Shown here piece after piece: positions 6,029 through 54,359 of a stretch of DNA of 64,000 bases. Position 1 is the first letter of the stretch. The number at the start of each line of letters is the position of its first letter. The notes beneath the pieces were generated by a model. The model was not told the DNA's origin. It did not search any database and worked only from the letters and a program-made list of their open reading frames with translations. The DNA is from Kangsaoukella pontilimi (GTDB lineage Bacteria; Pseudomonadota; Alphaproteobacteria; Rhodobacterales; Rhodobacteraceae): the NCBI RefSeq assembly GCF_009830125.1, contig NZ_WUPT01000001.1, forward strand, positions 248,001 to 312,000, in the 5' to 3' direction. Position numbers and translations under genes: made by a program.

Positions 6029-6406
6029 TTGCGCGGAAGGTCGGATGGCCGCTTGCCGCTCTTTCGGGGGCGGTGAGAGGAAAGTCCGGACTCCACGAAG
6101 CAACGGTGCCGGGTAACGCCCGGCCGGGGAAACCCGAGGGAAAGCGCCACAGAGAACAGACCGCCCCGCGTCCGCGCGGAGCAAGGGTGAAACGGTGGGG
6201 TAAGAGCCCACCGCGGGACGGGCAACCGGACCGGCACGGCAAGCCCCACCGGGAGCAATGCCAAATAGGGACCTCACACGGGCGCGCTTCGGCTCCGGGG
6301 TCCGGGTTGGCAGCTAGAGCGCGCCGGTGACGGCGGGCCCAGATGAATGGTCATCGCCGGCGCATCCGCGCCGGTACAGAATCCGGCTTATGCACCTTCC
6401 GCGCAA
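6029..6406 (+). ncRNA. rnpB: RNase P RNA, type A
   Basis: About 378 nt, the catalytic RNA that trims tRNA 5' leaders with RnpA. The 5' end (6029-6041) and 3' end (6394-6406) form a perfect 13-bp P1 helix. The universally conserved GAGGAAAGTCCGGACTCC block is at 6073-6091 and the ACAGAA of the 3' core is at 6376-6381. Internal GC-rich hairpins match an alphaproteobacterial type A RNA. Open frames through this segment on both strands are not genes. Confidence 0.96.
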
Positions 6407-51331: not shown

Positions 51332-51410
51332 AAAAAAAAGCGGCGACACCAGGGAGGAGGAAGGTGCCGCCGCATATTACAGAGCACCCAGGGAGGAGGA
51401 AGGGCCTCTG
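51332..51410 (-). ncRNA. CcsR/cuckoo-type small RNA, third copy with terminator
   Basis: Minus strand. Hairpin 1 (51410-51380) starts CAGAGGCCC and ends CTCTG; hairpin 2 (51373-51340) has arms GCGGCGGCACC and GGTGTCGCCGC. Each loop contains CCTCCTCCC. Eight consecutive U follow hairpin 2 (51339-51332), giving a strong intrinsic terminator for the array. Confidence 0.8.
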
Positions 51411-51450
51411 ATCTGATGTCGGGACGGTCATCGACCGTCCCGGGAATTCT

Positions 51451-51520
51451 GCGGCGACACCAGGGAGGAGGAGGTGCCGCCGCGCTCGTCAGAGAACCCA
51501 GGGAGGAGGAAGGGCCTCTG
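51451..51520 (-). ncRNA. CcsR/cuckoo-type small RNA, second copy
   Basis: Hairpin 1 at 51520-51490 and hairpin 2 at 51483-51451, arms GCGGCGGCACC/GGTGTCGCCGC with one G-U pair; loops carry CCTCCTCCC. Followed by a 10-bp hairpin (51442-51420) that may separate the units by processing. Confidence 0.8.
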
Positions 51521-51560
51521 ATCTCGGGTGGGCGGGTCAGCGACCGGCCCGGGAATTTGT

Positions 51561-51631
51561 GCGGCGACACCAGGGAGGAGGAGGGTGCCGCCGCCGTTTA
51601 CAGAGAGCCCAGGGAGGAGGAGGGGCCTCTG
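51561..51631 (-). ncRNA. CcsR/cuckoo-type small RNA, first copy
   Basis: 15 bp after the DUF1127 stop. Hairpin 1 (51631-51601) pairs CAGAG/CTCTG and GCCC/GGGC; hairpin 2 (51594-51561) pairs GCGGCGGCACC with GGTGTCGCCGC. Loops hold CTCCTCCTCCCT. The motif is the anti-Shine-Dalgarno-like CCUCCUCCC of Rhodobacter CcsR RNAs. Confidence 0.8.
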
Positions 51632-51646
51632 ATCTCGGAATTCGCG

Positions 51647-51862: not shown

Positions 51863-51930
51863 AATCATGTCCTTTCGCGGCTCGTTTCTGTCCGCTCGTC
51901 AACTCGATGATCCGAACATATGCCGATGCT

Positions 51931-51957
51931 GCGGATGCACAATGCCCGCGTTTTCAA
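51931..51957 (-). promoter_or_regulatory. Candidate heat-shock-type promoter of the DUF1127-sRNA operon
   Basis: On the minus strand TTGAAA (51957-51952) is followed after about 14 bp by CATCCG. This resembles an RpoH -35 with a poor -10 and is offered only because the Rhodobacter operon is RpoH-dependent. Confidence 0.25.
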
Positions 51958-52098
51958 TGCTGCTATGCAGCAATTGCATGGGTAACCTTCGGTAAATTAA
52001 GCAAAACGCCCATGAATTCGGCAGCGTCTCCGTGTGGGGTTGCCAAATCGGCACGGTGGGAACAATTACTTTACCAATCCGAACAAAAAGCGGCCGCC

Positions 52099-53202
52099 AT
52101 GACAGTTTCTCGCGAAGGAATCCTTGACAGCTTGAAAGCGCTGGAGGCGCCCGGAGGCGGAGATCTGGTCTCCCGCGACCTGATCCGTGCCCTTTCCATC
52201 GATGGCGGCGCCGTCTCCTTCGTGATCGAGGCGCCCGATGCCGAGACTGCCCGCGCTCTTGCGCCTCTGCGCGATGCGGCCGAACGCGCCGTGGCGGCTC
52301 TCGATGGCGTCGACAAGGTGTCCGCGGTCCTCACCGCTCACGGCCCGGCGGCCAAAGCGCCCCCGGCCACCCCGCAGCCGGGCGCCGGCGCGCCCCCTTC
52401 GCTCAAGATCGGCGGCCATCCCACACCCCAGCGTGGCGGGCCCGAGCGGATCGCGGGCATCGACCGCATCATCGCCATCGGCTCGGGCAAGGGCGGGGTG
52501 GGCAAATCCACCGTCTCGTCCAACCTCGCCGTGGCGCTGGCGAAAGAGGGGCGGCGCGTTGGGCTTCTGGACGCAGATATATACGGTCCGTCCCAGCCCA
52601 AGATGATGGGCATCAACAAGCGCCCCGGCTCGCCCGACGGCAAGACGATCATCCCGCTCCACGCCCACGGCGTGACGCTCATGTCCATCGGCTTCATGCT
52701 CGACCCCGCCAAGGCGGTGGTCTGGCGCGGGCCGATGCTGATGGGCGCGCTCCAGCAGATGCTGACACAGGTCGAATGGGGCGAACTCGACGTTCTGCTG
52801 GTCGATCTGCCGCCGGGCACGGGCGACGTGCAGCTCACGCTCTGCCAGCGCGCGCAGGTGACGGGGGCCATCGTCGTCTCCACCCCGCAGGACGTGGCGC
52901 TTCTCGATGCGCGGAAAGCCATCGACATGTTCGCGACCCTGAAAACCCCGGTGCTGGGCCTGATCGAAAACATGTCCACCTATGTCTGCCCGAATTGCGG
53001 CCATGAAGAGCACCTCTTCGGCCATGGCGGCGTCCGGGCCGAGGCCGAAGCGCTCGGCGCGCCGTTCCTGGGCGAGATTCCCCTGTCGCTCGACGTGCGC
53101 GTTGCCGGTGACAGCGGAACACCCGTGGCCCTGGGCGACGGGCCGGTGGCCGAGGCCTATGGCCATCTGGCGCGCCGCCTGATCGGCGGCGGCATGGGCT
53201 GA
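52099..53202 (+). CDS. Mrp/NBP35 family iron-sulfur carrier ATPase
   Basis: 367 residues. N-terminal MIP18-like (DUF59) region to about 80, a Pro/Ala linker, then a P-loop ATPase with deviant Walker [12 protein letters not shown] near 137, [16 protein letters not shown] and [13 protein letters not shown], and a CxxC cluster-binding pair in [13 protein letters not shown]. Carries and delivers Fe-S clusters (ApbC/Mrp). The ATG at 52099 matches the domain start; GTC/GTG codons upstream are unlikely. Confidence 0.92.
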
Positions 53203-53421
53203 CCGCGCCGCCGGCGTCCCGTATCAACACCGAACGTCCCTATCCGCAGCCGCAGGCGAGCGAGACCCGCGCCCGGGCCATCCGGCTGTGCAGCCATGTG
53301 GGCATCCATGGGACGAGCTTCTATCCTGCGGGTCCGCATGGGCTTGCCTGTCTTCACGCGGGGTGATTCAAGCGATTCTGGGTGTGTTTGAGGCGCTCCT
53401 GACCTTGTTTTCCCAGAAGTC

Positions 53422-53436
53422 CGGGAATTTTTGGGA
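53422..53436 (+). promoter_or_regulatory. MraZ-box-like pair upstream of the dcw promoter
   Basis: CGGGA, 5 bp, TGGGA, the spacing of MraZ-binding repeats (TGGGN-N5-TGGGN), 5 bp before the -35 of the candidate dcw promoter. Confidence 0.45.
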
Positions 53437-53441
53437 AATTC

Positions 53442-53471
53442 TTGAGGGCTTCTAATGGATCAATATATAGT
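53442..53471 (+). promoter_or_regulatory. Candidate promoter of the mraZ (dcw) operon
   Basis: TTGAGG (53442-53447) with TATATA (53464-53469, 16-bp spacer) or TATAGT (53466-53471, 18-bp spacer) in the most AT-rich stretch of the region. The implied leader to mraZ is about 400 nt. Confidence 0.45.
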
Positions 53472-53552
53472 ATTTAAAGCGCCAAAAATCTAAATATAGA
53501 CCCAATATCTCGGCCAGAGCGACCGGGCTCAACGCTCAATGGCGCCGTCCGT

Positions 53553-53596
53553 TCCCATGATTTCCCAAATTTTCTATTGCTTCCCATGTTTTCCCA
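53553..53596 (-). promoter_or_regulatory. Two MraZ-box-like pairs in the mraZ leader
   Basis: On the minus strand TGGGA-N5-TGGGA occurs twice (53596-53582 and 53567-53553), both with exactly 5-bp spacing. No gene is visible in 53203-53870. Confidence 0.55.
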
Positions 53597-53784
53597 TGGC
53601 ACCTTCCAAACATCGGAAGAGCGGGACAGCGCACAACGGGGCAGACAACGACCCCGGCGACCCAAAAAAGAGCAGGTTTCATACAGGCACCGCTTTTCCA
53701 ACACGAAGGATCCGGCGCGCGGGCGAGCAGACATCCCCCCAGGTGGCGCGCGCAGCTGGACTATCCCGGAGACGGGACGAGGGC

Positions 53785-53823
53785 GGCGGATCGAACACTG
53801 GCAGCAGTTCGATCCGCCGTTTT
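53785..53823 (+). terminator. Strong hairpin 48 bp before mraZ
   Basis: GGCGGATCGAAC (53785-53796) and GTTCGATCCGCC (53807-53818), a perfect 12-bp stem with a 10-nt loop, then GTTTTC. Terminator of an upstream transcript or attenuator of the dcw operon. Confidence 0.6.
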
Positions 53824-53870
53824 CGGTTTGACGGGGCAGAATTTGAAAGGGCCGCGGGACAGTGGTTCGG

Positions 53871-54359
53871 ATGTTCAGAGGCGAAGGCGTCCAGAAGGTG
53901 GACGCGAAGGGCAGGGTGTCCATCCCGGCCCATTTTCGCCGTGTTCTGGAGGCCGGTGACCCGTCCTGGACCGAAGGCAAGGCGCCCGAGTTCGTCATCG
54001 TCTATGGCGACGAGCGCCGTGATTTTCTTGAATGTTTCACCATCGACGCCGCGAACGAGGTCGATGCCGCCATCGCGGCGCTTCCGCGCGGCTCGACCAA
54101 GCGGCGCGCGATGGAAAAGGTCTTTCACGGCCAGTCCATGCCGCTGACCGTCGACGAGACGGGGCGCATCGTCCTTCCCGCGAAGCTCCGGCAGAAGATC
54201 GGGATCGACGGCGAGGCCTATTTCATCGCCATGGGCGACACCTTCCAGATCTGGAAGCCCGAGACGCACGAGCGTCACGACAGCGCCGTGGAAGAGCTTC
54301 TCGACAACCTTGGCGGGGCCGACATCTGGACCCTCCTCGAAAGCGAGGAGGAGGTCTGA
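53871..54359 (+). CDS. mraZ: Transcriptional regulator/division protein MraZ
   Basis: 162 residues, two AbrB-like SpoVT folds: FRGEGVQKVDAKGRVSIPAHFRR at the start and SMPLTVDETGRIVLPAKLRQKIG near 90-112, both with the DxxGR motif. MraZ forms a ring and represses the dcw operon by binding TGGG repeats. The ATG at 53871 matches family starts; a GTG at 53862 is in frame. First gene of the division and cell-wall cluster. Confidence 0.95.
   Translation: MFRGEGVQKVDAKGRVSIPAHFRRVLEAGDPSWTEGKAPEFVIVYGDERRDFLECFTIDAANEVDAAIAALPRGSTKRRAMEKVFHGQSMPLTVDETGRIVLPAKLRQKIGIDGEAYFIAMGDTFQIWKPETHERHDSAVEELLDNLGGADIWTLLESEEEV

Follow-up and report, generated by a model that had tools for sequence, protein, structure and literature searches.

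MraZ is a very widely conserved, ring-shaped bacterial regulator. In E. coli, Burkholderia cenocepacia and Mollicutes, the ring binds direct repeats at the mraZ promoter, which form a single series there (4 in Burkholderia, with a 10-bp period). DNA-looping repressors, such as those of the lac, gal and ara systems, act through 2 or more operators with a helical phasing period near 11 bp, and in vivo repression loops of the lac system likewise show a period near 11 bp.

In Rhodobacter sphaeroides, the dcw genes are additionally subject to control at the RNA level. According to the original description, mraZ is preceded by a 268-nt 5′ UTR with an intrinsic terminator (Weber et al. 2016, PMC5089854), at which there is approximately 1 read-through in 100, and which yields a 206-nt sRNA, UpsM. 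The same work ties UpsM to RNase E and Hfq dependence, describes its cleavage by RNase E to 130 nt and its 4 structured regions, R1 to R4, with R1 closed by a stem of approximately 11 bp, and reports a comparable leader for Rhodobacteraceae only (PMC5089854). A second sRNA of R. sphaeroides, the 72-nt, RpoHI/RpoHII-dependent StsR, is described in a later paper as pairing with UpsM and the dcw leader, thereby opening an RNase E site (PMC8307010).

Here, we analyzed the mraZ leader in a 64,000-nucleotide stretch of Kangsaoukella pontilimi DNA (hereafter, the window), which corresponds to C1:248001-312000 in a genome of 3.69 Mb (10 contigs). The features discussed below are collected in Table 1.

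Table 1. Features of the mraZ leader and of its candidate sRNA partner (window coordinates unless stated otherwise).
Feature	Position	Strand	Description or basis
O3, distal MraZ-type pair TGGGC-N5-TGGGA	53299..53313	+	79/117 sequences vs 11/117 on the other strand
Weak pair CGGGT-N5-TGGGC near O3	53329-53343	+	Sequence scan
O2, upstream MraZ-type pair CGGGA-N5-TGGGA	53422..53436	+	95/117 vs 1/117 on the other strand; phased with O1/promoter
NrdR-box-like palindrome CAATATATAG	53461..53470	.	39 bp after O2 start; overlaps the −10 hexamer proposed earlier
NrdR-box-like palindrome CTAAATATAG	53490..53499	.	29 bp from first palindrome
NrdR-box-like palindrome CAATATCTCG, one mismatch	53503..53512	.	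42 bp from first palindrome
O1′, auxiliary MraZ-type pair TGGGA-N5-TGGGA TGGGAAATCATGGGA	53553..53567	-	Sequence scan, genome count
UpsM/dcw promoter, inferred	53577..53606	+	−35 TTGCTT at 53577-53582, weak −10 at ~53599-53606
O1, MraZ-type pair TGGGA-N5-TGGGA TGGGAAAACATGGGA between −35 and −10	53582..53596	-	104/117 sequences
UpsM homolog (inferred ends)	53612..53826	+	215 nt; fold z-score −5.35; alignment and covariation
Element GCAGGTTTCATACAGGCA	53672..53689	+	Perfect complement of candidate StsR sRNA
R2 hairpin of UpsM, C-rich loop ACATCCCCCCAGG	53711..53760	+	Alignment, fold, covariation
R3 hairpin of UpsM	53764..53777	+	Fold of window RNA
R4 intrinsic terminator/attenuator	53784..53823	+	13-bp stem, conserved loop TGGCAGC, U4; alignment, covariation
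mraZ	53862..54359	+	GTG start favored, ATG alternative at 53871; NCBIfam MraZ model above cut-off
Candidate StsR sRNA	L194 ~930-1045 = C1 near 1012430-1012545	-	28/30 loci share ACTGCTCGATAGGTTTCTTGCCTGTATGAAACCTGCCTCA

The mraZ locus and its relatives

The leader lies between a gene for an ApbC/Mrp-type ATPase (51907-53202) and mraZ, which is followed by rsmH. Both MraZ and RsmH score above their NCBIfam cut-offs and the ApbC match below its own, and the closest named relatives of the MraZ protein are found in Boseongicola and Silicimonas. At 53862, GTG is conserved in 16 of 17 close loci (L031-L047) and replaced by TTG in the remaining one; the ATG at 53871 is conserved in 1 of the 17. An earlier, sequence-only reading of the same DNA had placed a hairpin 48 bp before mraZ, a distance that holds only if translation starts at the ATG. 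Upstream of the apbC/mrp-type gene, a 110-bp unit is repeated in tandem (2.7 copies, 86% matches, 51340-51638), and a bacterial RNase P RNA of class A is located at 6033-6406.

A total of 137 mraZ upstream regions were collected for comparison, and 9 were dropped (7 duplicates and 2 that were too short), leaving 128. Eleven of these, one of them from outside the family (L057, Acidisphaera), are without the UpsM anchor motif and were not scored for operators; the remaining 117 include the window itself, and 3 more are missing the promoter block, resulting in 114. Eighty of the regions are the top-ranked among the mraZ matches listed, several on short contigs having been left out, and because mraZ is present in 199 of 199 genomes, divergent genomes are under-sampled in this set. 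Box weights and position windows were fixed after viewing the aligned pairs, with the opposite strand and other intervals as controls. As outgroups, we used the 20 genomes with an mraZ match among 24 sampled at class level.

A UpsM-type leader RNA with a candidate StsR partner

The leader RNA is widely conserved among the relatives, with TTTCATACAGG (at most 1 mismatch) occurring in 117 of the 128 distinct mraZ upstream regions, and the R2 motif and the terminator loop TGGCAGC in 114 each. Across 38 aligned sequences, 98.9% of the cells in the R2 and terminator helices pair, with double changes at 14 of the 25 pairs, whereas slid controls reach only 28-40%; the hairpin to which the sequence-only reading had drawn attention thus covaries in related genomes. 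The hairpin itself, reported there at 53785-53823 together with a U-tract, is present, CGGCGGATCGAAC at 53784-53796 being perfectly complementary to GTTCGATCCGCCG at 53807-53819 over 13 bp, with a 10-nt loop and only TTTT behind. It was not among the predictions of a simple terminator scan because the latter limits loops to 8 and demands 5 T. As a whole, the 215-nt RNA of the window folds with a z-score of −5.35 into a layout resembling the published R1 to R4. R3 was seen both as a fold of the window RNA and by eye in the alignment, and the closing stem of R1, which comprises 10 bp in the window, has moderate support: in 79 of 114 sequences, the own stem scores higher than swapped partners do on average. 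The exact UpsM motif was found in 0 of 20 genomes, one from each of 20 other alphaproteobacterial families, within approximately 800 bp upstream of mraZ. No Rfam leader family reached gathering, the sole match up to E = 1 being to a miRNA model and well under the gathering score of that model.

Matched through the published anatomy, the leader is almost certainly a homolog of R. sphaeroides UpsM. Both systems have a long leader before mraZ, an intrinsic terminator and a family-wide occurrence, with structured regions here that would correspond to R1 to R4, and the RNase E cut (206 to 130 nt in R. sphaeroides) would fall here just behind an invariant leader element. The described leader and UpsM measure 268 and 206 nt, whereas those of the window would be approximately 250-259 and 215 nt long. 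The attenuation and leader-derived small RNA that the sequence-only reading had proposed are supported by this homology but are already in print for R. sphaeroides and Rhodobacteraceae: at the RNA level, the region represents a known system in a further genome.

Two loops of this RNA are conserved in their own right. The apical loop of the terminator, TGGCAGC (53799-53805), is invariant in the 38 aligned sequences while its stem covaries; since a plain terminator would need no invariant loop, this one may serve for pairing or for protein binding. The C-rich loop of R2, ACATCCCCCCAGG (53731-53743), is nearly invariant, and, purely as an idea, might base-pair in trans with target RNAs through their G-rich Shine-Dalgarno sequences.

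The 14-nt core AGGTTTCATACAGG of the UpsM element at 53672-53689 has exactly 1 further exact copy in the genome, where the match widens to 18 nt. This second site adjoins a terminator ending in T8 on the other strand, a transcript of which would carry a perfect complement of the 18-nt UpsM element inside a hairpin. The 40-nt stretch ACTGCTCGATAGGTTTCTTGCCTGTATGAAACCTGCCTCA is common to 28 of the 30 such loci examined, which have TTGG-N-TATA upstream in 27 cases and a T-run terminator behind in all 30. Furthermore, 57 of 61 family genomes contain an exact copy of a 22-nt signature of the candidate, and 60 contain it with at most 3 mismatches; every Rfam match at this site was below gathering. 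The predicted RNA, with a length of approximately 72-77 nt compared to 72 nt for R. sphaeroides StsR, would also share UpsM as the target. The RNA in the window genome was identified by complementarity, size and conservation, and its pairing is a prediction; we therefore refer to it as a candidate StsR partner of UpsM.

The probable dcw promoter and its MraZ-type pairs

A block resembling TTGATTCCCATGAATTCCCATGGCA, mostly located approximately 95 bp before the StsR element, scores at least 18 of 27.3 in 114 of 117 sequences, compared to 2/117 and 0/117 in the control intervals and 20/117 on the opposite strand of that interval. In the window, this block begins at 53577, its −10 is a poor match, and a MraZ-type pair (53582-53596) fills the spacer between −35 and −10. 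The promoter at 53577 is likely the one from which UpsM and the dcw genes are transcribed, with a predicted start near 53612, which would make the leader 250-259 nt long, close to the 268 nt measured in R. sphaeroides.

The sequence-only reading had assigned the promoter to 53442-53471. The hexamers are there, TTGAGG-N18-TATAGT being the sole sigma-70-like match in 1.6 kb, with 0.2 (sd 0.6) expected from shuffles, and if this were the main promoter, the pairs at 53553-53596 would be downstream operators in a longer leader. However, only 8 of 90 sequences keep TTG at the corresponding distance from O2, or 19 if a shift of one base is allowed, and the feature conserved at this place is a palindrome, whereas the TTG block at 53577 is conserved and yields a leader length near the 268 nt of R. 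sphaeroides. We rejected 53442-53471 as the main promoter and consider the arrangement built on it very unlikely.

The MraZ-type pairs of that reading, in turn, were recovered where they had been described, CGGGA-N5-TGGGA at 53422-53436 on the plus strand and the 2 TGGGA-N5-TGGGA pairs at 53553-53567 and 53582-53596 on the other; the plus-strand pairs at 53299-53313 and 53329 were not part of it. With the promoter at 53577-53606, the roles change: the pairs thought to lie downstream overlap the promoter, and the pair thought to lie just upstream of it becomes a distal operator. The earlier suggestion of autorepression by MraZ at the promoter is supported in principle, since 104 of 117 sequences have MraZ-type pairs that overlap the promoter, although it would operate at a different promoter from the one proposed.

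We take TGGG to be the MraZ motif, as assumed in the sequence-only reading, and TGGG-type repeats with a 10-bp period are present at the mraZ promoter. With the regions aligned on UpsM and positions counted from the StsR element, 104 of 117 sequences have a minus-strand pair between −60 and −125 (1/117 on the opposite strand), 95 have a plus-strand pair between −200 and −310 (opposite strand, 1/117), and 79 have one between −320 and −460 (opposite strand, 11/117); the latter 2 sets lie approximately 165 bp and 300 bp upstream of the promoter. Of the 114 sequences scored for distance, 24 have no O2 and 42 no O3 (score <12). The perfect pair occurs 3 times in the 3.69-Mb genome, 2 of them in the leader, and the reversed-pattern control likewise has 3 occurrences. 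In 61 family genomes, the perfect pair is not rare in itself, with 200 occurrences versus 152 for the reversed control, only modestly more. Yet among 124 perfect pairs listed, from the 39 genomes with a known mraZ place and with the other genomes left out, 36 (22 genomes) lie at most 900 bp upstream of mraZ, where 0.03 would be expected. The TGGG-type pairs are thus very probably MraZ sites, as predicted from their pattern and position; O2 and O3 of the window are imperfect pairs. Several relatives have doubled O3 pairs with a spacing of 19 or 22 bp, whereas the tandem arrays of other families are spaced by 10 bp.

The arrangement differs from the MraZ operators described for E. coli, Burkholderia cenocepacia and Mollicutes. 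Those consist of one series at the promoter, whereas the window has two-box units rather than 3 or 4 consecutive boxes (many relatives keep a weaker third box), one in the spacer and the others 155 and 278 bp upstream, and the distal units are on the strand opposite to the promoter unit and phased across relatives. None of the 20 outgroup genomes, each representing a different alphaproteobacterial family, has the Rhodobacteraceae arrangement. The only feature consistent among them, seen in 19 of 20, is a series of minus-strand pairs near mraZ with a 10-bp spacing, located 37 to 222 bp before an anchor codon near the mraZ start; at a laxer score of 11, some plus-strand pair was found in 9 of 20, in scattered places, and 1 outgroup (L150) has distal minus-strand pairs too. 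The main text of the UpsM paper (PMC5089854) contains none of the terms ‘TGGG’, ‘operator’ and ‘direct repeat’.

Helical phasing of the distal pairs

O2 and O3 of the window start 155 bp and 278 bp upstream of the −35 element, respectively. Among the relatives, the distance from the promoter TTG to the best plus-strand pair is 109, 120-122, 131-135, 141-144, 152-156, 164-168 or 175-180 bp, with no instance at 123-130, 136-140, 145-151, 157-163 or 169-174 bp. The O2-promoter distances are a comb with 11-bp teeth (Rayleigh R = 0.79, n = 90), which was reached by 0 of 2,000 jittered sets, and the same holds for the O3-O2 (R = 0.70, n = 60) and O3-promoter distances (R = 0.48, n = 72; 0/2,000 each). 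Since several named loci share a genus (Silicimonas, Sulfitobacter, Litoreibacter), the analysis was repeated with one genome per genus, giving R = 0.81 (n = 67) for O2-promoter and R = 0.68 (n = 53) for O3-O2, again with 0/2,000 each, and the same comb was observed in 77 genomes with a single pair. By contrast, the control distances are unphased: the values for promoter-StsR element, promoter-mraZ, R2-mraZ and O2-mraZ were reached by 147, 1,200, 1,627 and 1,976 of 2,000 sets, respectively. The best period for O2 is 11.4 bp; a period of exactly 10.5 bp, with R = 0.60 versus 0.79, was rejected.

In 45 pairs of sister sequences, 14 of 19 O2 changes larger than 2 bp and 13 of 19 such O3-O2 changes deviated by no more than 2 bp from a multiple of 11.2, with 5 and 6 off the comb, respectively. 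By our own reckoning approximately 45% would be expected by chance, so that the sister contrasts are better than chance but not overwhelming. The intervals share few 7-mers, the 114 sequences forming 112-113 clusters. Shared ancestry as the origin of the comb is weakened by the unphased controls, the one-per-genus sets, the sister contrasts and this scarcity of common 7-mers.

Multiple operators phased at a period near 11 bp are what the looping repressors of the lac, gal and ara systems have, from which MraZ differs in its protein fold; here, moreover, the phasing is read from evolution. MraZ looping is suggested because the sites are spread over approximately 300 bases at whole-turn distances in related genera, and, judged from these sequences, we moderately favor repression of the dcw genes by MraZ through helically phased DNA looping. 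In the ordinary alternative, the region would combine a UpsM leader with classical autorepression, MraZ acting solely at the promoter, and the distal pairs would be inconsequential old duplicates. This would agree with the promoter-near minus-strand array of 19 of the 20 outgroup genomes and with the promoter-near operators of E. coli and Burkholderia, but O2 and O3 keep strand, sequence and phase in genera in which the intervening sequence has diverged, which makes this explanation improbable. The opposite orientation of O2 and O3 relative to O1 could also indicate that they, together with the palindromes described below, serve another transcript, either antisense or from a small upstream gene. 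We regard this as highly improbable, considering that it is the distance to the dcw promoter that is phased whereas the O2-mraZ distance is not, and that no conserved ORF or other promoter was noticed by eye between the sites in the alignment.

NrdR-box-like palindromes inside the interval

The interval between O2 and the promoter holds palindromes of the pattern CWANATNTWG, which, like the helical phasing, the StsR partner and the promoter block at 53577, had not featured in the sequence-only reading. We take this pattern, which was then sought upstream of a ribonucleotide reductase (RNR) gene, to be the core of the NrdR box. Exact copies occur between O2 and the promoter in 66 of 90 sequences (shuffles: mean 1.0, maximum 5), and in 39 instances the palindrome begins 35-42 bp downstream of the start of O2, compared to 0.04 in shuffles. 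With one mismatch allowed, many sequences have boxes near −127, −96, −63 and −33 relative to the TTG, and 62 of 114 have at least 2. The 139 box spacings measured in the 114 sequences include 39 of 29-31 bp, 16 of 40-42 bp, 30 of 63-65 bp and 20 of 93-95 bp.

In the same family, the core box, either exact or with one mismatch and an ACA or TGT flank, is present in 14 of 20 upstream regions (20 of 30 relatives sampled) of a long RNR gene, presumably nrdJ judging by its size, and in none of the other 6; approximately half of the 14 regions have CAC...GTG. The window genome itself carries CACAACATATTGTG upstream of its long RNR gene, with the full outer CAC...GTG, at C1:733527, as well as an nrdR gene, of which 55 residues were scanned, scoring below the full-length cut-off. 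No exact core box was found upstream of its second PF02867 gene (L145). In 61 genomes, the full palindrome CACWANATNTWGTG occurs 89 times versus 26 for the control; among the matches listed, it could be placed in the mraZ leaders of only 3 genomes (G066, G070 and G089), and the full CAC...GTG palindrome is absent from the window leader. These 2 results, like the second PF02867 gene, speak against NrdR.

NrdR boxes are 16 bp long. According to 2 papers, they act 3 or 4 turns apart, with spacers of 14-17 or 24-27 bp (PMC12051234), and have conserved GC pairs 9 positions apart (PMC9110341). Box length and published spacers add up to 30-33 or 40-43 bp, so that of the distances in the window, 29 is 1 short and 42 fits. 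The palindromes thus resemble the box pairs of RNR promoters in their GC pairs 9 positions apart and in their spacing of 3 or 4 turns, and differ in lying at a cell-division promoter and mostly without the outer CAC...GTG. On this sequence evidence, we see an even chance that NrdR acts at the boxes inside the operator interval.

The palindromes also bear on a further explanation, namely, that MraZ, with or without a nucleoid protein, wraps or rigidly packs all 300 bp, or bends the DNA to activate. Phase dependence would be expected equally in that case, and the interval is filled by palindromes that keep a constant distance to O2. We nevertheless consider it unlikely, as the promoter-O2 spacing ranges from 109 to 180 bp and little except the palindromes is conserved between the sites.

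A model for the control region and its implications

It appears rather probable that this is a two-layer control region, composed of a UpsM-type RNA layer and a MraZ looping DNA layer. By homology to R. sphaeroides, transcription would start near 53612 and make a UpsM-type leader; most transcripts would stop at the hairpin 53784-53823, releasing the sRNA, and a fraction would read through into mraZ and the dcw genes. StsR would pair with the element at 53672-53689 and open UpsM to RNase E. At the DNA level, MraZ may simultaneously bind O1 within the −35/−10 spacer and the oppositely oriented O2 and O3, bridging O1 to O2 (155 bp) and O3 (278 bp) and bending the DNA into a loop, which would oblige the sites to keep the same helix face. 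A palindrome-binding repressor, most likely NrdR, may occupy the boxes inside the loop. As a tentative evolutionary scenario, on which we would place less weight, Rhodobacteraceae might have split the tandem MraZ array found in other families into opposed, helically phased operators through which MraZ loops the dcw/UpsM promoter.

Among the literature matches listed, a search for MraZ with TGGG returned only unrelated work, the titles and abstract openings gave no description of MraZ looping, which leaves its absence in print unproved, and none combined an NrdR box with mraZ. NrdR, cell division and dcw co-occur, among the matches listed, in a paper on Streptomyces WhiA and in a preprint on transcription-replication. 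Within the scope of the matches listed, the split, phased MraZ operator with NrdR-like boxes inside is the new part of the system.

UpsM and a StsR-like partner are conserved together across the sampled family. A looping operator, if true, would give the MraZ ring a purpose, and an NrdR input, if true, would make a link between DNA-precursor supply and division testable in easily grown Rhodobacteraceae.
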